From contig NZ_CP091800.1 in assembly GCF_022024235.1 (NCBI RefSeq), positions 486,001 through 550,000 of the forward strand: a DNA stretch of 64,000 nt, in the 5' to 3' direction. Each line of letters starts with the position of its first letter. The first letter of the stretch is position 1. Positions 5,143-40,013 of this stretch are shown here, piece by piece. Under the pieces are notes generated by a model. The model worked only from the letters and a program-made list of their open reading frames with translations. It had not been told where the DNA came from and ran no database searches. Made by a program: the position numbers and the translations under genes. Source of the stretch: Segatella baroniae B14 (GTDB taxonomy: Bacteria; Bacteroidota; Bacteroidia; Bacteroidales; Bacteroidaceae).

Positions 5143-6150
5143 ATGAAAGAATTTAAACTCAAGGAATTTATTACCGAATTTATAGATTCTCGTACCAATA
5201 ATATGGAGGAACGACATCGGCTTATCGTTTTTATGATGACAATGTTTGTCGTGTTTATTGGTTTCCCATGTCATATTTTCGGACTTGTTGGTACCCCAAG
5301 TACCATCATGCGTTTGTTAAGTGCTATTTCTATATTTTCTTCAGCTACCTTAGTAATACTATATGTAAAGAGAAAGATAGAATTAGTTCCTGTTTTTACG
5401 ATTTTTGGAATTATTGGACAAGGAGTTCAGACTTTGAAGATTTTATTGCTCACTTTTTATGTGGGTGGTGATAGGTTCTATCTCATACCGTTAAATCATA
5501 CTATTTCTATGATTTATACCATGCTGTTTGTCATGGCCTATAGCAAAATTATGCCAACTATTATTACAGGTGTAAGTTTGACTACCTATATAATAAGTAT
5601 GACATACCTCAATGATGAAAAGTTATTTGCTTTTTTTGTTGTATTTTTCTTTGTTCAGTTTTTTATTTGTTTTGCTGGTTCTTTTACGCGACAGAGTTTT
5701 TATTCATTGCAGCAGCAAAATCAAAATTATCACATCAGCGAAAAAAGGTTAAATAGTTTGCTACGTCTGAAAAGAGATCACATAGAAGCTTATTTGAATC
5801 TTTGCCAGAATGACCATGCTTCAGATAAAGACATAGATCGTCTGTTTGCTATTCTTGATGATCGTTCTCAGCGTAATATTGTTAATGCAGTGAAAAAGAA
5901 AATGGCAGAAATGAAAGCTGAGAAATCTTCTTTGGTAGAGACTTTTACAGATTTTACTCCAACGGAAATAGAGGTATCTCGACTTATACTTTTAGATAAA
6001 AAGTTGAAAGAAATTTGTATTACGATGGGGAAGTCTGAGACGAATATCAACTCTGTGCGTTCACATATTCGAAAGAAACTGGGACTCAGTGCTAATGAAG
6101 TTTTAAAAGATGCTTTGGAAAGTAGAATAAAAACAAAAAATGTATTCTAA
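5143..6150 (+). CDS. Membrane protein with C-terminal LuxR-type HTH
   Basis: A 335-residue protein. About six hydrophobic helices occupy residues 25-185. A charged, probably coiled-coil linker follows, then a LuxR/GerE-type helix-turn-helix in the last 65 residues (FTPTEIEVSRLILLDKKLKE, then a recognition-helix region with INSVRSHIRKKLGL). It is best read as a membrane-bound one-component transcription regulator that senses something at or in the inner membrane. Six-helix sensors fused to LuxR HTH domains are common in Prevotella and Bacteroides, mostly with unknown signals. A TTG 18 bases upstream could extend the frame by six residues, but ATG at 5143 is the natural start. No partner gene is adjacent. 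Confidence 0.8.
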   Translation: MKEFKLKEFITEFIDSRTNNMEERHRLIVFMMTMFVVFIGFPCHIFGLVGTPSTIMRLLSAISIFSSATLVILYVKRKIELVPVFTIFGIIGQGVQTLKILLLTFYVGGDRFYLIPLNHTISMIYTMLFVMAYSKIMPTIITGVSLTTYIISMTYLNDEKLFAFFVVFFFVQFFICFAGSFTRQSFYSLQQQNQNYHISEKRLNSLLRLKRDHIEAYLNLCQNDHASDKDIDRLFAILDDRSQRNIVNAVKKKMAEMKAEKSSLVETFTDFTPTEIEVSRLILLDKKLKEICITMGKSETNINSVRSHIRKKLGLSANEVLKDALESRIKTKNVF

Positions 6151-6156
6151 ATTAAT

Positions 6157-6183
6157 AAAATGCGCCAAATTGGTGCATTTTAT
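6157..6183 (+). terminator. Terminator after the LuxR-type regulator
   Basis: AAAATGC pairs with GCATTTT and GCCA with TGGT around an AAT loop, 7 bases after the stop codon, followed by a T-containing run. Confidence 0.6.
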
Positions 6184-6258
6184 TGGGTTTATACCTTCTA
6201 TTTCACGTAACTTATCTCTTTTTTTACTTCTTTTGAAACAACTTATTGAAAAAAAGAT

Positions 6259-6266
6259 TATATTTG
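6259..6266 (+). promoter_or_regulatory. -7 element of the small membrane protein gene
   Basis: TATATTTG lies 48 bases before the ATG at 6314. A TTTG at 6232-6235 is 23 bases upstream, slightly farther than usual. Confidence 0.4.
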
Positions 6267-6313
6267 AGCCATTAAAAACCTTAAAGTATTAAATCTATTC
6301 CAAACTGTTTACT

Positions 6314-6604
6314 ATGAATACAACCGTTATCATTTTTTTAGTTGTGGTCGTGTTCGTTGCACTGGCCTATTTTAATTACTGGCATAGTCATCATTTCAAA
6401 ATAAAAGAGGAATCGATTAAGCCTACTGTGGAGAAAATTTTTGCCGAACAAGGAAAAACGATACTTCGGAAAAAAGATTTTATCCGGTTGGTTGCCCGTT
6501 CTTATAGCTGTGGCAGTAAGGAAGCCTTGTATATTTTAGGTTTGGCTCGTAGTATGTCTGTGGTAGAGGAAGATGGTAATAAGGTAAAACTTGTTGCTGC
6601 TTAA
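6314..6604 (+). CDS. Small single-span membrane protein
   Basis: A 96-residue protein with one N-terminal transmembrane helix (about residues 3-22), a His-rich stretch just after it (YWHSHHF), and a short charged cytoplasmic domain with the look of a small helical fold (KDFIRLVARSYSCGSKEALY). I do not recognise a family. The gene has its own promoter-like box and a strong terminator 67 bases downstream, so it appears to be a single-gene unit. Confidence that it is real is good because of this framing. Confidence 0.7.
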   Translation: MNTTVIIFLVVVVFVALAYFNYWHSHHFKIKEESIKPTVEKIFAEQGKTILRKKDFIRLVARSYSCGSKEALYILGLARSMSVVEEDGNKVKLVAA

Positions 6605-17908: not shown

Positions 17909-19999
17909 ATGAAGAAAAAAATTTGGATGTTGCTTGTTGCACTGGTGTTAGTGCTTTCTGTTCAAGCTCAGATGCTGAATCCTGTTAAATTTACTACTCA
18001 GTTGAAAATAGGTAATTCGGCTCAAGCTGAAATTATCTTTACGGGTAAGATTAATCCTGGATGGCATGTATATTCTACTAATTTAGGTAATGATGGCCCT
18101 ATCTCGGCCACTTTTAATGTGAATAAGTTGGATGGTGTTCAACTTGTTGGCAAGCTTATGGCAAGAGGCCACGAAATTAGTAATTATGATAAGTTGTTTG
18201 GTATGACACTTCGCTATTTTGAGGGGAGTGTTACTTTTGTGCAAAAAGTTAAGTTTACCAAACCGAATTATTCCATAGATGCTTATTTGGAGTATGGAGC
18301 ATGCAATGATCAAAACTGCTTGCCTCCAACTTCTGTGGATATCAACAAAAGTGGTAAGAGTCCTGCTGTAGATGGTGATGCCAAGGCTCAAGAAGCTCAG
18401 GCTTTATCAGCAGAGATACCTGCTGCAGGTGGACAAATGGATGTAGCAGACCAAGCAGCTTTATCCAAAATGAAGGCCGACTCGTTAGCACAAGTTAAGG
18501 CTGATAGTGCTGCAGAAGCAGCTGTCGCTAAAATGTCAAAAGCAGAAAAGGATATTCTGTGGCAACCCGTAATAAAGCAGTTGCAAGCTTTTGGTGGTAC
18601 AAGTGATATAGCTAATCACTCCTTAATATATATATTCTTCATGGGATTTTTAGGTGGTCTTCTTGCATTGGTGATGCCATGTATTTGGCCTATTATCCCA
18701 ATGACAGTAAGTTTCTTCTTGAAGCGTGCAAAGGACAATCGTCAGAAGGGTATACGGGATGCGATTACATATGGTGTTTCTATTGTTGTTATTTATTTGG
18801 CATTGGGTATTTTAGTAACCGCAATCTTCGGCCCAAGTACACTTAATTCTTTAGCAACAAATGCCATCTTCAATATATTCTTGTTTGCTTTGCTGGTTAT
18901 TTTTGCATTGAGCTTCTTCGGATGGTTTGAAATAAAACTTCCTGATAGTTGGGCGAATAGGGTAGACAGTAAGGCCACTGCAGCCACAGGTGTGCTGTCT
19001 ATCTTCTTGATGGCTTTCACTCTTGTATTAGTCAGTTTCTCATGTACAGCACCTATCGTAGGTTTACTGCTTGTAGAGACCGTTACTTCTGGTAATTGGT
19101 TAGGTCCAGCCTTGGGTATGTTTGGTTTTGCCTTGGCGCTTGCTGTACCATTTACCCTCTTTGCTCTATTCCCATCACTGATGAAAAAGAGTCCAAAGAG
19201 TGGTGCCTGGATGGAACAGATTAAGATCGTGTTAGGATTTATTGAATTAGCTTTTGCCTTGAAGTTCTTTAGTGTAGCCGATTTAGCTTACGGTTGGCAT
19301 TTGCTTGATCGTGAAGTGTTCTTGAGTCTTTGGATAGCGATATTCCTTTTCATGGGATTGTATCTTATCGGTGTGCTCAAGTTTAGAGTGGACGAAATCG
19401 GCGGTGAATTAAATCGTCCAATGCCAGTGCCAAGTATCATGTTGGGTTTATGCGCATTTGCCTTCTCGATCTATTTGGTACCAGGACTTTGGGGGGCTCC
19501 ATGTAAGGCGGTAAGTGCTTTCGCACCTCCGATGAATACGCAAGATTTTAATCTGAATACCAAGACTGTTGAGGCTCATTATACCAATTATGAAGAGGGT
19601 ATGGCTGCCGCTAAGGCACAAGGCAAGCCTGTGCTGATAGACTTTACGGGTTTTGGTTGTGTTAACTGTCGTAAGATGGAGGCAGCTGTATGGACAGATC
19701 CTCAAGTTGCAGAAAAGTTAGAGAAGGATTATGTCTTGATCAGTCTCTTTGTTGACGATAAGACTCCATTAGCAGAGCCGATTAAGGTGAATGAAAACGG
19801 TGTAGAGCGTACTCTTCGTACCATTGGTGATAAGTGGAGTTATTTGCAGAGCCACAAGTTTGGTGCTAATGCTCAACCATTCTATGTCGCTGTCGATAAT
19901 GCTGGTAATCCATTGAACTCAGCTTATGGCTACAAAGAAGATGTACCAGCTTATCTCGATTTTCTTGATAAGGGCTTAGCTACTTATCAGAAGAAATAA
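17909..19999 (+). CDS. dsbD: Thiol:disulfide interchange protein DsbD
   Basis: A 696-residue inner-membrane reductant transporter that would pass electrons from cytoplasmic thioredoxin to periplasmic thiols. The order is standard: signal peptide (ends VQAQ), N-terminal alpha domain with the Cys pair in YGACNDQNCLPP, an Ala/Lys-rich linker (about 155-205), an eight-helix membrane domain with the paired Cys in MPCIWPIIP and SFSCTAPIVG, and a C-terminal thioredoxin-like domain with the active site GCVNCRKM. All six redox cysteines are present. Length is slightly above E. coli DsbD because of the linker. It stands alone with its own promoter and terminator. The closely related ScsB-like name is the only real alternative. 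Confidence 0.92.
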   Translation: MKKKIWMLLVALVLVLSVQAQMLNPVKFTTQLKIGNSAQAEIIFTGKINPGWHVYSTNLGNDGPISATFNVNKLDGVQLVGKLMARGHEISNYDKLFGMTLRYFEGSVTFVQKVKFTKPNYSIDAYLEYGACNDQNCLPPTSVDINKSGKSPAVDGDAKAQEAQALSAEIPAAGGQMDVADQAALSKMKADSLAQVKADSAAEAAVAKMSKAEKDILWQPVIKQLQAFGGTSDIANHSLIYIFFMGFLGGLLALVMPCIWPIIPMTVSFFLKRAKDNRQKGIRDAITYGVSIVVIYLALGILVTAIFGPSTLNSLATNAIFNIFLFALLVIFALSFFGWFEIKLPDSWANRVDSKATAATGVLSIFLMAFTLVLVSFSCTAPIVGLLLVETVTSGNWLGPALGMFGFALALAVPFTLFALFPSLMKKSPKSGAWMEQIKIVLGFIELAFALKFFSVADLAYGWHLLDREVFLSLWIAIFLFMGLYLIGVLKFRVDEIGGELNRPMPVPSIMLGLCAFAFSIYLVPGLWGAPCKAVSAFAPPMNTQDFNLNTKTVEAHYTNYEEGMAAAKAQGKPVLIDFTGFGCVNCRKMEAAVWTDPQVAEKLEKDYVLISLFVDDKTPLAEPIKVNENGVERTLRTIGDKWSYLQSHKFGANAQPFYVAVDNAGNPLNSAYGYKEDVPAYLDFLDKGLATYQKK

Positions 20000-20121: not shown

Positions 20122-20135
20122 TGTGTACGTACACA
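20122..20135. promoter_or_regulatory. 14-bp perfect palindrome, possible operator
   Basis: TGTGTACGTACACA is a perfect dyad in otherwise AT-rich DNA. Its centre lies 67 bases upstream of the -33 box of the repeat-rich RNA. The position suits an activator or a dimeric repressor, but no cognate regulator is next to it. Confidence 0.35.
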
Positions 20136-20194
20136 TTTTTCTTGATTTAAAACAAGAAAAGGCCTAAAATCGATGATTTTTCTATTTTTTTATG

Positions 20195-20223
20195 TTGTAA
20201 AACACAAAAAAGTTGTACTTTTG
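20195..20223 (+). promoter_or_regulatory. Promoter of the repeat-rich RNA
   Basis: TTG (20195-20197), 18 bases, TACTTTTG (20216-20223), followed by CAG. No start codon with a usable frame follows. Confidence 0.6.
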
Positions 20224-20227
20224 CAGT

Positions 20228-20438
20228 GTCATAAGAAAAATAGTTTTAGGTTAAAGATTGTTTAGGTTTAGTATTAGGTTATAAAGGTTATATAAAGATT
20301 GTCAGTGGACAAAGATCTTAGGTATTATGTTTTAGGTAATAAAGATTATTTTAGGTTTAATAATGATGTTTAAGAGGATTCGGCCGTGAGGCTGGACCTC
20401 ATGCCAAAGGCGGGGAGTTTCTCTTCGCTATTTTTTTT
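20228..20438 (+). ncRNA. Candidate non-coding RNA with TTAGGT repeats
   Basis: About 210 bases between a promoter and a strong terminator, without a reading frame of note. The first 130 bases contain six copies of TTAGGT (20246, 20262, 20274, 20319, 20332, 20351). AAAGATT is interleaved at 20253, 20294 and 20341. The 3' part is G+C-rich and structured: a hairpin GGCCGTGAGG/CCTCATGCC (about 20382-20405) and then the terminator stem. The contrast between an AT-rich repeated 5' half and a folded 3' half is unlike the surrounding intergenic DNA. Family not recognised; tmRNA, SRP and RNase P hallmarks are absent. Confidence 0.55.
20410..20438 (+). terminator. Terminator of the repeat-rich RNA
   Basis: An 8-bp stem (20410-20417 with 20421-20428, two G-U pairs), a TTT loop, then TA and eight T. 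The remaining 260 bases to the GH28 promoter show nothing further I can assign. Confidence 0.7.
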
Positions 20439-20765: not shown

Positions 20766-22145
20766 ATGAACAAATTAATAATAGGAATCATTAGTCTGTT
20801 GATGATAGGCAATGTTCAATGTTTAAGCGCTTTTGAAATTCCTCATGTAGAGCAACCTACTTTTGCTAACTATGAGGTTAGTATTATTGACTTTGGCGCA
20901 CAATGCGGGCCTGATCATGTTAATACCATGGCGATTAACCAAGCAATAAAAGCTGTAAGTCAGCATGGAGGTGGTAAAGTAATTATACCAGCAGGTTATT
21001 GGATGACAGGTGCTATAGAAATGCAGAGTAATGTGAACCTTTATTTGGATTATAACGCATTTGTTTCTTTCACTACCAATATTTCAGATTATCGATTAGT
21101 AGATACCGATTTTGAGGGTAGTCCATCAAAGCGTTGTATTGCTCCTATTTCAGGTACGCATCTTCAGAATATTGCTATTACGGGTCATGGTGTTTTTGAT
21201 GGTTCCGGTGAACGTTGGCGTCCAGTAAAGCGTAGTAAACTGACAAGCGCGCAGTGGAAGAATTTTACCTCTCGTCCTGGTTCTGTCAATAAGAAAGGTG
21301 ATGTTTGGGAGCCAGATAGCAATGCTGCTAATATTCGTCCGGTACTGCTTAATTTCACATCTTGTAAAAATGTGAAACTCGAGGGAGTAACCTTTAAGAA
21401 TTCACCAGCGTGGTGTGTGCATCCTTTGTTATGCGAAAATGTGACGATTGATAATATTAAGGTAAATAATCCTTGGTATGCTCAGAATGGTGATGCCCTG
21501 GATGTTGAGTCTTGCAAAAATGTAGTGATTATCAATAGCCTTTTTGATGCAGGTGACGATGCTATCTGTATCAAGTCGGGCAAAAACGAGGCTGGTCGTC
21601 GCCGTGGTGTACCATGTGAGAATGTATATATCAAGAATAATACTGTACTTCATGGTCATGGTGGCTTTGTTATCGGAAGTGAAATGTCTGGTGGCGTAAA
21701 GAATATCTATATATCAGATTGTACTTTTATTGGTACAGATGTAGGTTTGCGATTCAAGAGTGCCCGTGGTCGTGGTGGTGTCGTAGAAAATATATATATC
21801 GACCGTATCAATATGAAGAATATTGTAAACGAGGCGATAACTATGAACCTATATTATTCTTCAAATGGTAAACCTGCAGAACGTACTGATGTAAATGAAG
21901 GTACACCTGTCTTTAGAAATATTGAAATGAAAAATCTGTTAGTAGAAGGCGCAGGTAAATCATTCTATCTCTATGGTCTGCCAGAAATGCCACTCGAAAA
22001 TATTAGCATTCAAAATATGCGTGTTTCAAAGATTGCAGAAACGAGTAGTATTAACTATGCTAAAAATATCAAGATAGAAGGTTATCAGGCTAGTGATGCC
22101 AAGCATATTGTTGTATCCAATAGTTCTGCTGTAAAAATCAAGTAA
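20766..22145 (+). CDS. GH28 polygalacturonase-family pectinase
   Basis: A 459-residue exported right-handed beta-helix enzyme (signal peptide to about residue 22). The four GH28 signatures appear in order: NGDALD (about 241-246, equivalent to NTD), AGDDAICIKSG (about 262-272), GHGGFVIGSE (about 297-306) and LRFKSARGRGG (about 328-338, equivalent to RIK). The N-terminal INQAIKAVSQHGGGKVIIPAG is also usual. The family hydrolyses galacturonic-acid linkages in homogalacturonan or rhamnogalacturonan; the subset with a long N-terminus like this is usually exo-acting, which is an inference here. It stands alone, outside any SusC/SusD locus in the window, but would complement the GH105 domain at 42-44 kb. 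Confidence 0.9.
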   Translation: MNKLIIGIISLLMIGNVQCLSAFEIPHVEQPTFANYEVSIIDFGAQCGPDHVNTMAINQAIKAVSQHGGGKVIIPAGYWMTGAIEMQSNVNLYLDYNAFVSFTTNISDYRLVDTDFEGSPSKRCIAPISGTHLQNIAITGHGVFDGSGERWRPVKRSKLTSAQWKNFTSRPGSVNKKGDVWEPDSNAANIRPVLLNFTSCKNVKLEGVTFKNSPAWCVHPLLCENVTIDNIKVNNPWYAQNGDALDVESCKNVVIINSLFDAGDDAICIKSGKNEAGRRRGVPCENVYIKNNTVLHGHGGFVIGSEMSGGVKNIYISDCTFIGTDVGLRFKSARGRGGVVENIYIDRINMKNIVNEAITMNLYYSSNGKPAERTDVNEGTPVFRNIEMKNLLVEGAGKSFYLYGLPEMPLENISIQNMRVSKIAETSSINYAKNIKIEGYQASDAKHIVVSNSSAVKIK

Positions 22146-32232: not shown

Positions 32233-32495
32233 CTAATTCTTAATCAATTCTTATATTGATAAATATTAAAATTCTAACAATCAAGGTCTTTTTCTTTCGC
32301 TTTAGTTGAAGTTTCATCTTATATAATTTATCATTCGCTTATGACAATGCTTTATTTTTTACTGTTGCAAAAATAGTAAATATGAATGTTTTTTGTTTCT
32401 CAAAAAGTATTTATTAGTAATAATTTGTATTTTTAGAGCAAAATTAAATCCTTTAAATACCATGAAGGCTTGATATCCACCATCTTGTCCACCAT

Positions 32496-35400
32496 TCATT
32501 CCACTTTCGAATATTCTTTAGGAGATACTCCAAATTCCTTTTTGAAGCATTTAGAGAAATATTTTGGTGTATTGAATCCTACCATGAGCGCCAAGTCAAC
32601 AACATGAATTCGTGGTTGTTGAGTTAGTATTTCTGACGCTTTCAGCATACGTATATGTGTGATATATTCCACAATGCTTTTTCCGGTGAGGGCTTTAATT
32701 CGATTGTATAGGGTACTGGAACTGATGTTAAGATCCTCTGCTAATTGTTCTCTACCATATTCTGCATCTTCGATATGGTCATGAATAAGTCGATTAACAT
32801 GGTTGATGAAGATTTGATCGGGATTACTAATATGCTTATTGGTATGTAGGTTGAGTTTGAAGTCCTCTGTTTCTTGAATGAGTCGTTGTATATTTTTACG
32901 ATTATCCAGCAGATTAGCTATTCTCATTTTCAGTTCCTCCATGCTGAATGGTTTGTTCATGAAATCATCAGCGCCAGCTTCCAATCCCTTATTTTTATCT
33001 TCTGTGGTGGTTTTTGCTGTCAATAAGACAACCGGTATGAGTTGATAATCATGATTTGTTTTGATTAGTCTTGTTAGTTCCAGACCGTCCATGATAGGCA
33101 TCATGATGTCTGAAATGACCAAGTCAAGACTCTCTTTTTGTATGATATTCCATGCCTGACTGCCATTTTTGGCTGTTATGATGTGATATAGGTTGCCGAG
33201 TATTTTTTGCATGAGTTGCAATAATTCCAGATTATCCTCGACTATCAGGATAGTATAATTTGTCTTTCTTTTAGGTTTGGGTGGTATGACGATTGCCATT
33301 TTTTCAGTTTGTTTTTTTTCGTCTCCGTTATGGTTGATGCATCCTTCTTTTTTAGCGACGATACCGGTTTGATCGATTTCATCTGCAGTATAATCACTTT
33401 TACGGATGGGGAGTGTTACTCGAAATGTGGTACCTACGTTTTGCTTACTTTCATAGGTAATCGTGCCATGATGCAGTCTTACCAGTTGGTTCGTGATGGC
33501 TAATCCGAGACCTGTTCCCTCAGTTTTTACTTTGCGATAATCACCATCGAGAAATCTGCTATATAGATTTTTTTGTTTGTTTTTTGCTATTCCTATACCT
33601 TGATCTTCTACTTCCAGTATAATGTTAGCAGCATGTAACTTGAGTCTTACTTTTACTTCTCCTCCAGGTCGATTGTATTTGAAGGCATTTGAAAGCAGAT
33701 TATATATAATTTTATCTAGTTTGTCAGGGTCAAACCAGGCGAGTGTGTAGCTATTGGGTATTTGTGTTTTTAATATATTATTTCTGTGTACTCCCATCGG
33801 ACCGATGTTTTCGCATTCTTGGCGAACGAAGGCTGCAATATCCCCTTTACTTACCTGAAGCTTTAGTTTACCAGCTTGACTTTTTCTCATTTCTAGTATC
33901 TGTCTGAATAGTCTACTTAATCGTTTTACATTATTCTGAATAATAGCATAGTCGTCATCTAGTTGTGGCACTCTGTCTTTCATTTGGTCTATTGCCGCAG
34001 AGATTACAGTTAGAGGGGTTAGCAGTTCGTGGGTAATGTTGGTAAGAAAGGCATTCATGTTAGCTTTATTACGATCCTGAATACGTCTTTGATACATTTT
34101 TTGTATGATATATATGATTCCTAATAGAAGGAGCAGATATATAGCTTTTGCACCTGTCGAAGCATACCATGCCGGTAATACGTTCACTTTCAGTTCATAG
34201 CCCATATCATGCCATATACCCGTATTATCCATAGCTCTTACATGTAGTTTGTAGTTACCTGAAGGTAGGTTTTGGAATATTGCTCGGTGTTTGTTGTTGG
34301 TCAGATATTGCCAGTGTTCATCATATCCTTCCAGTTTGTAGGCATATTTATTGTGCTCTACGTCGGTATAGTTGAGCAAAGAGAAGTTGAAACTTATTTT
34401 TCTGATCGTTGAAGGGATAGTTATTTCTCGACAGTATTGTGCTGTTAGAGTTGTTATTTCTTCTCGTTTAGTCGAGTCTAACTCTTCGAGCGATGCGTCA
34501 TCTATCAATATATCTGATAGGATAAGATGAGCTTGTTGCTCTGGGGTTCGATCTATTTTTTCTGGAGTAAGTGAGAGTATCGTGTTATGCTGCCCCCAAA
34601 ATAGTTCATCTTGATATTTGTAGGTGCTGCCGGCAGGAAAAAAAGTCTCGCCTATACCATCTGCTTCTGTATACGTCGTTACGATAGGAGAGGCGTTATG
34701 GCTGAAATCCAGTTTTACCAGACCGTAGTTGGTCGTTAGCCAAATATGATGTTTGTTGTCTTCGTTAATGGCATATATACATTCTCCATCGATGTGATAT
34801 TTACGATTGAGTGATATAAACCGATCTTGTTCTGCCTGATAGAGAAAGAGTCCACTACTTGCTGATATGGCCCATAACCTGTGGTAACTATCTTCAAAAC
34901 AGGCCGTTGCGTCGTTAATGGCGAAATTCCCATTTTGTTGGCAGTATTGATGAAATTGCAGTTGATTACCTTTCTGTTTGTTTTTTCTGATGCGTATAAT
35001 ACCTTCATTGTCTGTAGATACCCACATGTCGCCATGATGGTCTTCTGTGATGTTTCTTACATCTACGAAACTGAAATCTTTTCCTTTTTCCTGAATTTTC
35101 AGAATGGTACCTTTGCCGTTTGGATAAACGATGCTTAATGCAGAGCGCTGGCCTATCCACATCGTGTGATCGCGACTTTGGTATAGTGTATTCACAAAGT
35201 TGTCAGCAATATATGGGGTAGTGGGAGCACTCAACACTCGAGCAGGTTTGTTGTCATATCTGATAATTACACCAAAACTGCCGTTGGCCAACCAAATTTC
35301 GCCATTATCTCGTTTGATAATAGATGATATTTTAGTACTTAACACGTTTTGAGGTACATTTTCTAAACCTGTTATATCTTGATTATATAGAGTGGTATTG

Positions 35401-36563
35401 GTTTGCCGATTATATAATGCCAAACCGTAAGGATTTAGTCCTAGCCACATGGTGTTACCGTCGGCTGTGTAGATACAGTTGATAGCATTGATTAAAAAAG
35501 GAGCTCGATTGAGATCGATTTGTGCACGACTGAATGGAGTGGGATTCGTGTTTACCGGTATGATGCCATAATTCATGGTGCCCACCCATATATTATGGTT
35601 TTGATCGGTGAGCAGGCAGTAGCAGAAATCCAGTCGGGTATGACCGAGCGAAGTATATTTTTGCCATTTTTCCTGAGGTTTATTCATATCAAGCAGTGCG
35701 ATGCCCTCTCGGCTACAAGCCCATATCATATTTTGTTTTGTATCCTCTAGTATATGATAATAAGTATCAAAATCATGAGTCTTATAGGGATAGCTTATGA
35801 TATCAGGTTGTTGTATTCGTTCTGGGTGATTTAGTCTTTGCATACCTTCTCCCCAACTGCCCACCCATAATCGCTTTTTGTGGTCGAAGACTAGGGAATA
35901 GACCGAATTTTTGTTATTGATAGGTGGATAGGCATAGAAAATATTTGAATTTGGTTTCATGCGATACAGGCCATTGCTCCAGGTTCCCAAATAGAGTACA
36001 CCATTGTTGTCTTCTGTAAATGTCTTCACGCTACCTATAAATTGGCGTATTTTTTTACCTGATGGCGTAATGACCCAGGAATTTTGTGTTGTGTAATTAT
36101 GAAAACTGTCATTTTGGGCATCGTAATAAGTTACACCATTATCTGTACCTATCCACAAGCGTCCCTTGCGGTCTATATATAAGGTATAAATCACACGCTG
36201 ATTTTCTTTCGGTAAGAAATAGGTTTTAAATTTTCCTGTTTTTTTATCCATTCTCACTAGACCACCACGAGTACCTATCCACAGATGATCATTATGGTCT
36301 TCTTCTATACACAGTATATTATTATTAGGTAGAATTTTGGGTGTAAAGGCATTACTGACATATGATTTTACGGTATAACCATCATACGATTTCAGACCAA
36401 CATTAGTACCCATCCACATCATACCTTGTTGATCCATAAAGAGGCAGTGAAGTTCTTCTGAGGGCATTGTTCTCAGTATGGGCATTAGACGGTAAGGAAA
36501 AGATTCTGCCATAACAATCATGGTAATAAACAATAGCAGAATGATGGATATGTATTTTTTCAT
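32496..36563 (-). CDS. Hybrid two-component system regulator of the polysaccharide locus
   Basis: A 1355-residue sensor-regulator in one chain. After a signal peptide (about 1-19) come 12 or so beta-propeller repeats of the Reg_prop type (MDQQGMMWMGTNVGLKSYDG, and many W-x-G-T/W-V-G-T copies), then a Y_Y_Y domain (about 755-815) and one membrane helix (about 825-845). The cytoplasmic part has a HisKA box (FLTNITHELLTPLTVI), a HATPase domain (DQGIGIAKN and GTGLGLAI), a receiver domain (ILIVEDN, phospho-Asp in ISDIMMPIMDG, Lys in MNKPF) and an AraC-type HTH (ALMVGFNTPKYFSKCFKKEF). It should bind a released oligosaccharide in the periplasm and switch on the divergent SusC operon. Confidence 0.95.
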   Translation of the reverse strand: MKKYISIILLLFITMIVMAESFPYRLMPILRTMPSEELHCLFMDQQGMMWMGTNVGLKSYDGYTVKSYVSNAFTPKILPNNNILCIEEDHNDHLWIGTRGGLVRMDKKTGKFKTYFLPKENQRVIYTLYIDRKGRLWIGTDNGVTYYDAQNDSFHNYTTQNSWVITPSGKKIRQFIGSVKTFTEDNNGVLYLGTWSNGLYRMKPNSNIFYAYPPINNKNSVYSLVFDHKKRLWVGSWGEGMQRLNHPERIQQPDIISYPYKTHDFDTYYHILEDTKQNMIWACSREGIALLDMNKPQEKWQKYTSLGHTRLDFCYCLLTDQNHNIWVGTMNYGIIPVNTNPTPFSRAQIDLNRAPFLINAINCIYTADGNTMWLGLNPYGLALYNRQTNTTLYNQDITGLENVPQNVLSTKISSIIKRDNGEIWLANGSFGVIIRYDNKPARVLSAPTTPYIADNFVNTLYQSRDHTMWIGQRSALSIVYPNGKGTILKIQEKGKDFSFVDVRNITEDHHGDMWVSTDNEGIIRIRKNKQKGNQLQFHQYCQQNGNFAINDATACFEDSYHRLWAISASSGLFLYQAEQDRFISLNRKYHIDGECIYAINEDNKHHIWLTTNYGLVKLDFSHNASPIVTTYTEADGIGETFFPAGSTYKYQDELFWGQHNTILSLTPEKIDRTPEQQAHLILSDILIDDASLEELDSTKREEITTLTAQYCREITIPSTIRKISFNFSLLNYTDVEHNKYAYKLEGYDEHWQYLTNNKHRAIFQNLPSGNYKLHVRAMDNTGIWHDMGYELKVNVLPAWYASTGAKAIYLLLLLGIIYIIQKMYQRRIQDRNKANMNAFLTNITHELLTPLTVISAAIDQMKDRVPQLDDDYAIIQNNVKRLSRLFRQILEMRKSQAGKLKLQVSKGDIAAFVRQECENIGPMGVHRNNILKTQIPNSYTLAWFDPDKLDKIIYNLLSNAFKYNRPGGEVKVRLKLHAANIILEVEDQGIGIAKNKQKNLYSRFLDGDYRKVKTEGTGLGLAITNQLVRLHHGTITYESKQNVGTTFRVTLPIRKSDYTADEIDQTGIVAKKEGCINHNGDEKKQTEKMAIVIPPKPKRKTNYTILIVEDNLELLQLMQKILGNLYHIITAKNGSQAWNIIQKESLDLVISDIMMPIMDGLELTRLIKTNHDYQLIPVVLLTAKTTTEDKNKGLEAGADDFMNKPFSMEELKMRIANLLDNRKNIQRLIQETEDFKLNLHTNKHISNPDQIFINHVNRLIHDHIEDAEYGREQLAEDLNISSSTLYNRIKALTGKSIVEYITHIRMLKASEILTQQPRIHVVDLALMVGFNTPKYFSKCFKKEFGVSPKEYSKVE

Positions 36564-36737: not shown

Positions 36738-39700
36738 ATGAGAAGTAGTAACCAATATTTCCACACAAGAAAGTTTGTCTTTCTGATGGCGATGATTGCA
36801 GGACTTCCTTCACTGCCACTTACGACTAAGGCAGCTGAAACGGTTCAGTTGACGAATCAGGCCGAAAAAATATCCGGCCAAGTGTTAGACCAAAATGGAG
36901 ATCCTGTTATCGGTGCGACTATTAAAGTTAAAGGAACCACTACTGGTACAGTGACTGATTTAGATGGTAACTTTACCATTAATGCTCATTCGGGTAGTAC
37001 GCTCGAAGTTTCTTACATTGGTTATAAGACGATGCAGGTTAAAGCTGCTAATCATGCGGTTATTAAAATGCAAGAAGATAGTAAAAATCTGAATGAGGTG
37101 GTCGTTGTCGGTTATGGTACGATGCGTAAAAAGGATCTCACCGGTTCTGTTGTTCAGATTGATCCTAATAAGATAGCCGATCAAAATCCGGGAAGTGTAC
37201 AGGATATTCTTCGTGGCACTCCAGGTCTTCAGATAGGTTTCGATTCTTCTGCTAAGGGTGCAGGGGCTTCTATCCAGTTACGTGGTCAGAATTCTCTTTA
37301 TACAGATGGCTCTCACAACTCACCATTGATTATTCTCGATGGTATGCAGTTTAATGGTGAACTTTCTGAAATTAATCCTGATGACATTGCTCAGATTGAT
37401 GTTTTAAAAGATGCTTCTTCAGCAGCTATTTATGGTGCTAAAGCTGCTAGTGGTGTATTGATTATTACGACAAAGAAGGGTAAAGTAGGTAAACCGGTTA
37501 TTAATGTCAGCATGAATCTTGCTGCAAATACCAAGGCTCATTACCGTAAGGTATTTAGTGCTAGCGATTATATGAGATATCGTGAGGACTGGTTTAAAGC
37601 TCAGACGTATGGTTATGACGAAAATGGCAACTGGGGGTATTATGGTAAGGATAGTGGTGTACCTGCTGGTTATTATGATAATGTAAATAATATCAGTCAG
37701 TATGGTCTGACAGAGGAACAATGGGCTACTATGGGTGCTAAGACTCTGCAGAGTGGTGAATCTATCCAGTCGCTTTATGCTCGCAGAATGGGTCTTGACG
37801 CTGATGCCGCTCTTGTTATGCAAAATTATCTTGCTGGTAAGAGTTATAATTGGGAGGATGCAACATTCCGTACAGGTTTTAATCAAGACTATGATGCTAG
37901 CGTTTCTGGCGCTTCCGATCGGGTAAATTATTATCTCAGTTTCGGATATCTGAAGAATCAGGGTGCTATTCAAGGTGATAACTATAGTGCTTATCGTGCC
38001 AATATGAAGATCTCTGCAGATATTACGAATTGGTTGCAGATTGGTGCAAATGTTAATTTCCAGGATCGTACGGATACTTCTTCACCAGTTCCGCTGGGTA
38101 CTAATTATTGGGATAATAACCAGTTGAGAGAGTCTCCTTATGCTCAGCGTTATAATGAGGATGGTACAGAGAATCAGTATCCTCGTAGTGGTAATCCTAC
38201 CAATGGAGGTTACAATTATCATTTTGATCAACAGTTTATCAAGCTTAATAAGGGTTATACGACATTAAATACCATTTTCAATGCAAAGGTAACTCTGCCG
38301 TTCGGGTTCACATACCAATTTAATATTGCTCCACGCCTGCAGTGGTTCTATGACCGCTATCACATGTCTGCAGAGCTGCCAAACAGTGATCCTGCAACAC
38401 GAGGAGTAAACCGTAATTCATCTAAGACATACGATTATAGCCTCAATAATACTTTGACATGGGATAGAGTATTCAATAAAGATCATCATGTTACGGTGAC
38501 TTTGGTACAAGAGGCTGAGGAAAATAAGTACTGGAGCGATAATATTTCAGCTCGTAATATTACTCCTACTGATGTCTTGGGATATCATTATATCTCTGGT
38601 GCCAACAAGGCACAAAGTAGTTTTTCTACGAATGATACCCATTCTACTGCAGCGGCTTATTTAGGGCGATTGTTCTATGGTTATAAAGATCGGTATATGT
38701 TTACGGGTACTGTCCGTCGAGACGGTTATTCGGCTTTCGGTCAGAACAATCCATGGGCTACATTCTGGTCGATGGGTGGTAGCTGGGTCTTCTCTGAAGA
38801 AGATTTTGTCAAGAAGAGTATGCCATGGTTAGATTATGGTAAGCTGAGAGTATCTTATGGTACTAATGGTAACCGTTCTCTCTCTAATACTTATCTGGCA
38901 CTTTCAGACTTGGCTAATGGTGGTCTTTATGCTTATTATAAATATGGATCTACTTCGCAAGAAGTTATTAATGCTTTGAGTATTAATCGTCTGGGTAATC
39001 CTAACTTGGAGTGGGAAAAGACTTCTTCATGGAATATTGGACTCGACTTTTCTGTGCTCGATCAGCGACTTACGGGTAGTATCGATTGGTACACGAAACG
39101 TACTCATGATATGATTATGCGTCAGCGTCTGCCTAACTTCACCGGTTTTAGCAGTATTACTACTAACTTGGGTGAGGTTACCAATAGTGGTATTGAACTC
39201 ACCCTCAATTCTCGTAATATTGATACTGAGAATTTTAAATGGAATACCTCGGTAGGCTTCTCTTACAATAAAAACAAGATTAAGCATCTGTATTACGAGT
39301 ATGACGAAGAGGGTAAGGAAATAGATGATACCAGCAATGGTTGGTTTATCGGTAAGCCTATTGGAGAAATTTGGTATTGGAAAACTGATGGTATCTGGCA
39401 AGTTAATGAAGCGGAAGAGGCAGCCAAGGTAAATCAGAAGCCTGGAGACCCAAAGGTCGTTAATAGCTATACTGAAGACGATAAAATCAATGCTGATGGC
39501 ACCCGTACACCGGTTTATAATGATAACGACCGTGAATATCTAGGTACCACCCAACCTCCTGTATACTGGAATATGCGCAATGATTTCACCTTCTTCAAAG
39601 ACTTTACCTTCTCTTTCTCTATGTATTCTTATATGGGGCATAAGAGTTTGTCTGGCGAATGGCTGAATAATGATAATTCCGGTTCTATGTTTACAAATAC

Positions 39701-40013
39701 TTGTAATGTATACGATAAGGAATACTGGACTCCTGACAATCCAACCAATGATTATGCTCGATTGAATGCCGTTGGCCCTTCTGGCGTAACTGGAATCCAG
39801 AAGCTATATAACCGGTCATTTGTACGTCTTGACAATATCACTTTTGGCTACACACTGCCTAAGGCATTGACCATGAAATGGGGTATACAGCGTGTACACG
39901 TAAGTGCTGGTATCAACAATGTCTTTACTATCAGCAGTTGGAAGTATGGTGATCCTGAAACAGGCGGATTTTCTAATCGTCAGTTCCAGTTCGGTCTTAA
40001 TGTAACATTATAA
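36738..40013 (+). CDS. SusC-like TonB-dependent outer-membrane transporter
   Basis: A 1091-residue outer-membrane importer of oligosaccharides. After a long signal peptide (about 1-33) comes a carboxypeptidase-regulatory-like domain (ISGQVLDQNGDPVIGATIKV), then a TonB box (NEVVVVGYGTMRKKDLTGSV), a plug domain (PGSVQDILRGTPGLQI; IDVLKDASSAAIYGAKAASG) and a 22-stranded beta-barrel ending in an aromatic strand (RQFQFGLNVTL). Length and motif order are standard for SusC. The SusD gene starts 14 bases downstream. Expression is presumably switched by the divergent hybrid regulator through the repeat at 36628-36666. Confidence 0.96.
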   Translation: MRSSNQYFHTRKFVFLMAMIAGLPSLPLTTKAAETVQLTNQAEKISGQVLDQNGDPVIGATIKVKGTTTGTVTDLDGNFTINAHSGSTLEVSYIGYKTMQVKAANHAVIKMQEDSKNLNEVVVVGYGTMRKKDLTGSVVQIDPNKIADQNPGSVQDILRGTPGLQIGFDSSAKGAGASIQLRGQNSLYTDGSHNSPLIILDGMQFNGELSEINPDDIAQIDVLKDASSAAIYGAKAASGVLIITTKKGKVGKPVINVSMNLAANTKAHYRKVFSASDYMRYREDWFKAQTYGYDENGNWGYYGKDSGVPAGYYDNVNNISQYGLTEEQWATMGAKTLQSGESIQSLYARRMGLDADAALVMQNYLAGKSYNWEDATFRTGFNQDYDASVSGASDRVNYYLSFGYLKNQGAIQGDNYSAYRANMKISADITNWLQIGANVNFQDRTDTSSPVPLGTNYWDNNQLRESPYAQRYNEDGTENQYPRSGNPTNGGYNYHFDQQFIKLNKGYTTLNTIFNAKVTLPFGFTYQFNIAPRLQWFYDRYHMSAELPNSDPATRGVNRNSSKTYDYSLNNTLTWDRVFNKDHHVTVTLVQEAEENKYWSDNISARNITPTDVLGYHYISGANKAQSSFSTNDTHSTAAAYLGRLFYGYKDRYMFTGTVRRDGYSAFGQNNPWATFWSMGGSWVFSEEDFVKKSMPWLDYGKLRVSYGTNGNRSLSNTYLALSDLANGGLYAYYKYGSTSQEVINALSINRLGNPNLEWEKTSSWNIGLDFSVLDQRLTGSIDWYTKRTHDMIMRQRLPNFTGFSSITTNLGEVTNSGIELTLNSRNIDTENFKWNTSVGFSYNKNKIKHLYYEYDEEGKEIDDTSNGWFIGKPIGEIWYWKTDGIWQVNEAEEAAKVNQKPGDPKVVNSYTEDDKINADGTRTPVYNDNDREYLGTTQPPVYWNMRNDFTFFKDFTFSFSMYSYMGHKSLSGEWLNNDNSGSMFTNTCNVYDKEYWTPDNPTNDYARLNAVGPSGVTGIQKLYNRSFVRLDNITFGYTLPKALTMKWGIQRVHVSAGINNVFTISSWKYGDPETGGFSNRQFQFGLNVTL

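Follow-up and report, generated by a model that had tools for sequence, protein, structure and literature searches.

A candidate FopS-related small RNA gene with reiterated putative seeds, one of seven sister copies, and its complementarity to SusC leaders

Positions 20228–20438 of the DNA analyzed here look like a real, unannotated small RNA (sRNA) gene, one of seven sister copies in its genome. This DNA (the window) is a stretch of 64 kb, G000:C2:486001–550000, and its source, the own genome (G000), comprises 3.63 Mb on two contigs. Judged by its sequence, the window RNA is a multi-seed relative of FopS that scores below the FopS cut-off. We consider it probable that this FopS-related RNA acts in trans through its UUAGGU seeds and lowers expression of some SusC/PUL genes, its own transcription being driven by a regulator of the Crp/Fnr type. 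Computation established the anatomy of the gene, its family, an upstream element at fixed spacing, covariation in the core members of the family and the complementarity of UUAGGU to SusC leaders.

Results

An RNA gene with single-stranded repeats and a folded 3′ end

The gene sits between a DsbD-type gene (17909–19999) and a GH28 gene (20766–22145; Pfam). A sequence-only reading had described a promoter, six TTAGGT and three AAAGATT units, a hairpin and a terminator, with no reading frame, and sequence inspection, pattern positions and folding placed all of these features where they had been claimed (Table 1). The TTAGGT words start at 20246, 20262, 20274, 20318, 20332 and 20351, and the AAAGATT words at 20253, 20294 and 20341. 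Across the 64 kb, TTAGGT occurs 23 times on the + strand and 4 times on the − strand, and solely at this gene do at least four copies fall within 120 nt. The claimed absence of a reading frame also held, as the + strand of the RNA carries no credible ORF; its four ORFs of at least 15 codons (ATG, GTG or TTG starts) span only 22–29 codons each, and those from 20386 and 20401 extend through the terminator.

Table 1. Features of the RNA gene and of its upstream region (window coordinates)
Feature	Position	Strand	Basis or remark
Palindrome 1, TGTGTACGTACACA; centre about −99.5 from inferred start	20122–20135	.	Element pattern
Palindrome 2, FNR-box-like, TTGATTTAAAACAAGA; centre about −79.5	20142–20157	.	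Element pattern
Bacteroidota promoter: TTG (20195–20197), 18-nt spacer, TACTTTTG (20216–20223), CA	20195–20225	+	
Small RNA gene, about 211 nt	20228–20438	+	Start from promoter and FopS copy L093; end from terminator U run
Best predicted pairing segment, with SusC leader G000:C1:425152–428325	20243–20272	+	−28.4 kcal/mol
Unstructured repeat region: six TTAGGT (proposed seeds), three AAAGATT (no role assigned)	20246–20356	+	
Degenerate FopS R1′-type seed, GTATTAGGTTATAAAGGTTATATAAAGATTG	20271–20301	+	Local score to FopS seed, 0/500 dinucleotide shuffles
GUGA-capped hairpin	20374–20400	+	Folding
Intrinsic terminator hairpin and U run	20409–20438 (hairpin 20409–20429)	+	Folding

Folding agreed with the proposal that single-stranded repeats precede a structured 3′ core. 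The 5′ 139 nt are on a par with shuffled sequence (z −0.03), and the 3′ 75 nt reach −29 kcal/mol (z −3.5, equalled by 1 of 200 shuffles) as a GUGA-capped hairpin and a terminator hairpin that precedes the U run. The matching 3′ parts of three paralogues are also structured (z −4.5, −4.4 and −3.7), three paralogues form a hairpin like the GUGA one, with an outer stem, an internal loop and a capped inner stem, and a CC-GNRA-GG version of it is present in other family members. The sequence-only reading had left room for a known housekeeping RNA; because no Rfam family reached its gathering score in the window, no such identity was found. Sub-threshold Rfam matches (snoR17, SpF11, JA01, VrrA and others; E 3.5–9.3) look like A+T-rich chance and were rejected.

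Seven family members share an upstream double palindrome at fixed spacing

BLAST within the own genome found paralogues that, with the window copy, form a family of one plus six elsewhere. The word GATTGTTTAGGTT, at no more than one mismatch, occurs at 13 places in this genome, seven of which are family members and six of which are not. All seven members carry an upstream TGTG..CACA-like palindrome followed by TTGAT..CAAG; in the window copy the latter is TTGAT..TCAAG, which resembles an FNR box. A degenerate pattern of this double palindrome matched seven times in 3.63 Mb, each time at one of the seven family genes, and a reversed control pattern did not match in the own genome.

The distance from the end of palindrome 2 to the end of the −7 box is 68 nt in the window gene. 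Of 149 genomes of the genus, the own one among them, 95 had a match to the element pattern; these 95 include some false positives in coding DNA (5 of 28 loci parsed). The control pattern gave a single match. From this search we took 29 same-genus loci, of which 23 have a −7 box in range, five lack one and look like coding DNA, and one was unparsed. In all 30 parsed loci, namely these 23 and the seven of the own genome, the element and the −7 box are 68 or 69 nt apart; left out of this count, among L064–L092, are L066, L074, L081, L087 and L088 (no −7 box) and L083 (unparsed), and three further loci parsed with a spacing of 68 went uncounted (L017, which is the same place as L065, L024 and L033). 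In a second locus set, collected with the core seed described below and overlapping partly with the 149-genome element set, the strict element lies 66 or 67 nt from the end of TTTG in 50 of 50 cases. The FNR-box-like sequence and its position suggest that a Crp/Fnr-type activator probably binds the double palindrome and serves all seven copies as well as one FopS copy.

At least one TTAGGT was found in 20 of the 23 same-genus element loci, within the sequence inspected, and is missing from three family members (L079, L085 and L086). Against 100 relatives (own included), the window copy had no convincing full-length match among the matches listed; the longest of these, in G003, is weak (query 27–213, 68% identity, E 0.002). 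A phage origin was considered and rejected: 38 phage records gave short, weak matches, none covering 80% of the query, and 37 of these were Enterococcus phages, with matches mostly in LysM, peptidase or aggregation-factor genes. Two family members have a small ORF downstream of the repeat part, a membrane-protein-like one of 24 aa (MGITMMIAWIAAFTASGYVVKRFE) in L058 (G000:C1, about 2.125 Mb) and a small, likewise membrane-protein-like one of 27 aa in L079 (G140).

The structure of the core member is conserved by covariation

One member of the own genome, L059 (C1:2.392 Mb), has close relatives in many genomes, and we refer to it as the core member. Its first ~55 nt are nearly invariant (GGTTAATAGATTGTTTAGGTTAGTAGTAATAGATTTAGGTTTTTAGTTATT); after them come a CC-GNRA-GG hairpin, then a linker and the terminator. 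The exact 22-nt seed of the core member occurs in at least 118 contig stretches; among the matches listed, 78 of 80 titles carry Prevotellaceae names and two do not. The names in these 78 titles are Prevotella, Segatella, Hoylesella, Hallella, Leyella or Xylanibacter, the last five of which belong to the Prevotellaceae, or Prevotellaceae itself, and on this basis we call the own genome Prevotella-like. Enough upstream sequence was available for 77 of the 80 loci listed; 50 have the strict element, 19 the relaxed TTGAT..TCAA only, and 8 neither.

A MAFFT alignment of four 3′ modules from the own genome put the stems out of register and was rejected. Covariation was therefore measured on core members, in an alignment of the 11 of 14 core loci with the AGTTAAACATA linker (L070, L082 and L089 left out). 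Compensatory changes were found at 12 of the 23 pairs of hairpin and terminator, mostly in the terminator (10 of 14, compared with 2 of 9 in the hairpin). Paired cells make up 96.4% of this alignment, a share that none of 500 shuffles attained (85.8%), and 38–48% when the structure is slid out of register, a comparison in which the true register is favored over the slid versions since the structure was derived from the same 11 sequences. The core-member structure is under selection at the RNA level; this result holds for core members, and we claim no covariation for the window copy. A long-range pair in core members, UGUUUAG/UUAAACA, is neither supported nor refuted because it never varies. 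The 11 aligned loci show no variation in the linker that follows the hairpin, AGTTAAACATA; being complementary to TGTTTAG, a word of the seed, this linker could possibly mask the core seed within the same molecule.

The window RNA resembles FopS and lies below its cut-off

As described in PMC11697453, FopS (RF04319) of Bacteroides thetaiotaomicron comprises multicopy paralogous sRNAs with a single-stranded 5′ seed followed by a terminator; the same source reports that FopS-10 pairs around the susC start and so prevents translation. The own genome holds two true FopS copies (G000:C1:2250619–2250686 and G000:C1:283138–283208; 76.7 and 75.5 bits, gathering score 56). The window locus falls below the FopS cut-off and is absent from the eight matches of the FopS model in this genome at E up to 10. 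It has FopS-like traits: it is multicopy, has computed complementarity to SusC starts, shares its genome with the two FopS copies, and displays in its unstructured 5′ part a degenerate, non-identical copy of the FopS R1′ seed (UAUUAGAUUUAAGGUUA..AAAGAUUG; Table 1). Across the family, a FopS-seed signal at 25 of 500 shuffles or better was found in 19 of 30 loci and was not found in 11 of 30. Unlike FopS, which has a 71-position model and a single terminator hairpin, the window RNA is about 211 nt long, has several seed words rather than one, ends in a separate GUGA (GNRA) hairpin and a terminator, has the double palindrome upstream, and resides in a genome in which a PF00076 (RRM_1) search gave no match, a result that tells against its being bound by RbpB.

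The FopS copy at C1:2250619 carries an FNR-like palindrome (TTGATTTAAATCAAGA) at the family's 68-nt spacing, and none was found upstream of the copy at C1:283138. The idea that such an element is a general FopS feature was dropped, as the strict pattern occurs in just 2 of 30 FopS loci of relatives; one further near-match was seen by eye.

We compared the window RNA with three other systems. GibS (RF04182, PMC7366714) shares an unstructured, seed-bearing 5′ part. The same-genus member L065 aligns end-to-end with the GibS model at 32.7 bits (E 0.0069 for a short stretch; gathering score 115) and scores 23 bits with the FopS model; in the own genome, the window gene is absent from the 10 GibS matches at E up to 10. 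The Segatella copri sRNA SrcF (El Mouali et al. 2024) is reported, in a summary given by PMC11814227, to affect nutrient-uptake genes and PULs. SrcF, compared by description only, is likewise a Prevotellaceae sRNA, and L272, one of the loci with the core seed, comes from Segatella copri; should SrcF prove to be the core member, this sRNA family would in part be known already. In the literature searched we recognized no published description of this family. The closest working analogue is LhrC1-5 of Listeria, for which PMC4132741 describes five co-controlled copies, each with three redundant short pairing motifs, that impede translation of their targets. LhrC1-5 are alike in being multicopy with reiterated motifs, and differ in motif (UCCC), targets and phylum; no homology is claimed.

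The complement of the repeat word marks SusC leaders in two genomes

The idea that leaders in general share a consensus able to pair with the repeats was rejected, ACCTAA being present in only 5 of 181 leaders, and a SusC-specific test was therefore made. The own genome has 35 SusC matches at E up to 1e-20; the 33 over the family cut-off formed the SusC set, and the other two were dropped. Comparison leaders (175) came from the window and a sample of 20 × 20 kb, and gene starts for these tests were those of a crude ORF caller. The word A[CT]CTAA lies within 60 nt upstream of the start in 14 of 33 SusC leaders vs 5 of 175 others (p 2.8e-9), two of these five being near-identical neighbors; on the opposite strand it was found in 1 SusC and 2 other leaders. 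Because the motif was first seen by eye in this genome, it was fixed beforehand for a second genome, G024, which is for the same reason the sole clean test. There A[CT]CTAA occurs in 14 of 41 SusC leaders (one, L217, has no usable upstream sequence and is counted as a miss) vs 6 of 142 others (p 1.6e-6), and on the opposite strand in 0 SusC and 2 other leaders.

In each of the two genomes A[CT]CTAA ranks first of 120 letter permutations. ACCTAA, the exact complement of TTAGGT, is found in 8 of 33 SusC leaders vs 3 of 175 others in the own genome and in 9 of 41 vs 1 of 142 in G024. TTAGAT is not present in the window RNA, so the ATCTAA half of the sites needs G-U pairs with UUAGGU. The word is missing from most SusC leaders (19 of 33 and 27 of 41), and the leader counts are not fully independent, as leaders may share ancestry. 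AAAGATT was also tried as a second seed and found no support in either genome, its complements AATCTTT, AATCTT and CAATCT occurring in 0 of 33 and 0 of 41 SusC leaders.

Duplex energies, computed over −40 to +9, point the same way (other leaders sampled, 66 of 175 in the own genome and 80 of 142 in G024; L217 dropped). Against SusC leaders the 5′ part of the window RNA beats all dinucleotide shuffles (0 of 30 as good in the own genome, 0 of 40 in G024), while against other leaders shuffles were as good in 17 of 30 and 19 of 40. For the 3′ part, shuffles were as good on SusC leaders in 18 of 30 (own) and 33 of 40 (G024); on non-SusC leaders this part had a slight advantage over shuffles in the own genome (3 of 30 as good) and none in G024 (17 of 40). 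Among relatives of the window RNA, the own core member had 0 of 30 shuffles as good on SusC leaders and 25 of 30 on others, the own FopS 1 of 30 and 4 of 30, and L065, the member native to G024, 0 of 40 and 1 of 40, with stronger pairing to SusC (p 3.7e-4). The SusC leader listed in Table 1 is the one predicted to pair most strongly with the window RNA, at about −37 to −15; other family members have different best SusC leaders. A placement of this best target in a pectin operon was rejected, as the operon's third gene had no Pfam match.

Several loci touched by these searches deserve a record. A gene of ~1350 codons with a signal-peptide-like start (window 32495–36563, − strand) adjoins a SusC gene at about 36867–40010 (+ strand), and the leaders of the two each contain an A[CT]CTAA word; that the former encodes a sensor-type regulator is only a guess. 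In L126 (G000:C2, about 645 kb), nearly identical neighbor genes at 5305–5848 and 6019–6568 have the same leader end with ACCTAA. In the assembly, the signal-peptide start of the SusC gene L154 (G000:C2:438242–441358) seems to lie in another frame than the rest of the gene.

Discussion

Since the window RNA contains a degenerate FopS seed and A[CT]CTAA marks SusC leaders, we consider it most likely that the TTAGGT words serve as repeated antisense seeds aimed at the translation starts of SusC mRNAs, and not as a protein sponge. The sequence-only reading had suggested that the repeats could be a sponge for an RNA-binding protein or a small RNA; the FopS-seed match, and the enrichment of the TTAGGT complement on the sense strand upstream of SusC starts in two genomes, make this not the best reading. 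In a sponge, the UUAGGU and AAAGAUU repeats would titrate an RNA-binding protein (RRM/RbpB-like or other) in the manner of CsrB. Many similar short words do lie within an unstructured stretch, the AAAGAUU words have no mRNA target signal, PMC11697453 reports that RbpB, of the RRM_1 class, binds FopS RNAs in Bacteroides, and G024, a same-genus genome with the sRNA family, carries an RRM_1 protein. The own genome, however, has no RRM_1 match, such proteins occur in 2 of 11 same-genus genomes by PF00076, and a protein sponge does not predict that the UUAGGU complement should be enriched in SusC leaders; we regard this explanation as unlikely. By PF00076, the sole basis of the RRM counts, RRM_1 proteins are present in 25 of 121 sampled genomes of the GTDB family vs FopS proper in 102 of 121 (97 over cut-off, including all 11 of the genus), and FopS-type RNAs thus often occur without RbpB-type proteins.

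The enrichment in SusC leaders could also be read as that of an RNA competitor or buffer, whose repeats bind SusC leaders or other RNAs without repression, for example in competition with FopS. FopS and the window family share a seed vocabulary and both match SusC leaders; the repeats, however, have the same sense as the FopS seed and are not its complement, and would therefore not capture FopS itself. This reading seems to us decidedly unlikely. Less credible again is a small-protein leader or its remnant, which would derive the family from 5′ leaders of small membrane-protein genes and assume loss of the ORF in the window copy: L058 and L079 do carry a membrane-protein-like ORF after the repeats, but a terminator closes both the window copy and the aligned core members, in which no comparable ORF was seen, and the core structure is selected as RNA, which together make such an origin very improbable. 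Chance A+T-rich repeats with a fortuitous promoter and terminator, for which an A+T-rich intergenic setting and a low complexity that makes weak BLAST matches common would speak, can practically be set aside, given that seven members have the upstream element at fixed spacing, that the control pattern did not match in the genome and that none of the 500 shuffles equalled the FopS-seed match.

We therefore return to antisense seeds against SusC as the preferred reading. The gene would encode a trans-acting regulatory sRNA of a Prevotellaceae family related to FopS. We infer that it is transcribed, from a promoter of the sigma-ABfr type together with the double palindrome at about −80 and −100, and that one Crp/Fnr-type activator, answering to a signal of its own, probably serves all seven copies and the one FopS copy. 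The unstructured 5′ ~140 nt would display the UUAGGU seeds, which in vivo may pair, some G-U wobbles included, to sites of the A[CT]CUAA type that lie no more than ~60 nt upstream of the start codon in mRNAs for SusC, the outer-membrane glycan importer. Such pairing is predicted to hinder ribosome entry, so that repression would be the sign of the effect and some polysaccharide-utilisation operons would be expressed less as a result. The 3′ GNRA hairpin and terminator would end the RNA and probably protect it.

A broader proposal, which we put forward tentatively and think less likely true than false, is that the Prevotellaceae have a dedicated SusC-silencing regulon, in which one Crp/Fnr-type regulator would switch on multi-seed sRNAs tuned to different SusC leaders, and in this genome one FopS copy as well, with no RRM protein involved. 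It takes the double palindrome as fixed at −80/−100 and used for little else.

Which glycans gut Bacteroidota can live on depends on their SusC importers. Should this reading hold, the Prevotellaceae would own a wide, unannotated post-transcriptional layer over SusC, built on reiterated seeds and one shared signal, and specific sRNA–SusC pairs would be predicted. It would also suggest that FopS-type control can exist without RbpB, and the fixed spacing of the element makes its putative regulator directly searchable.
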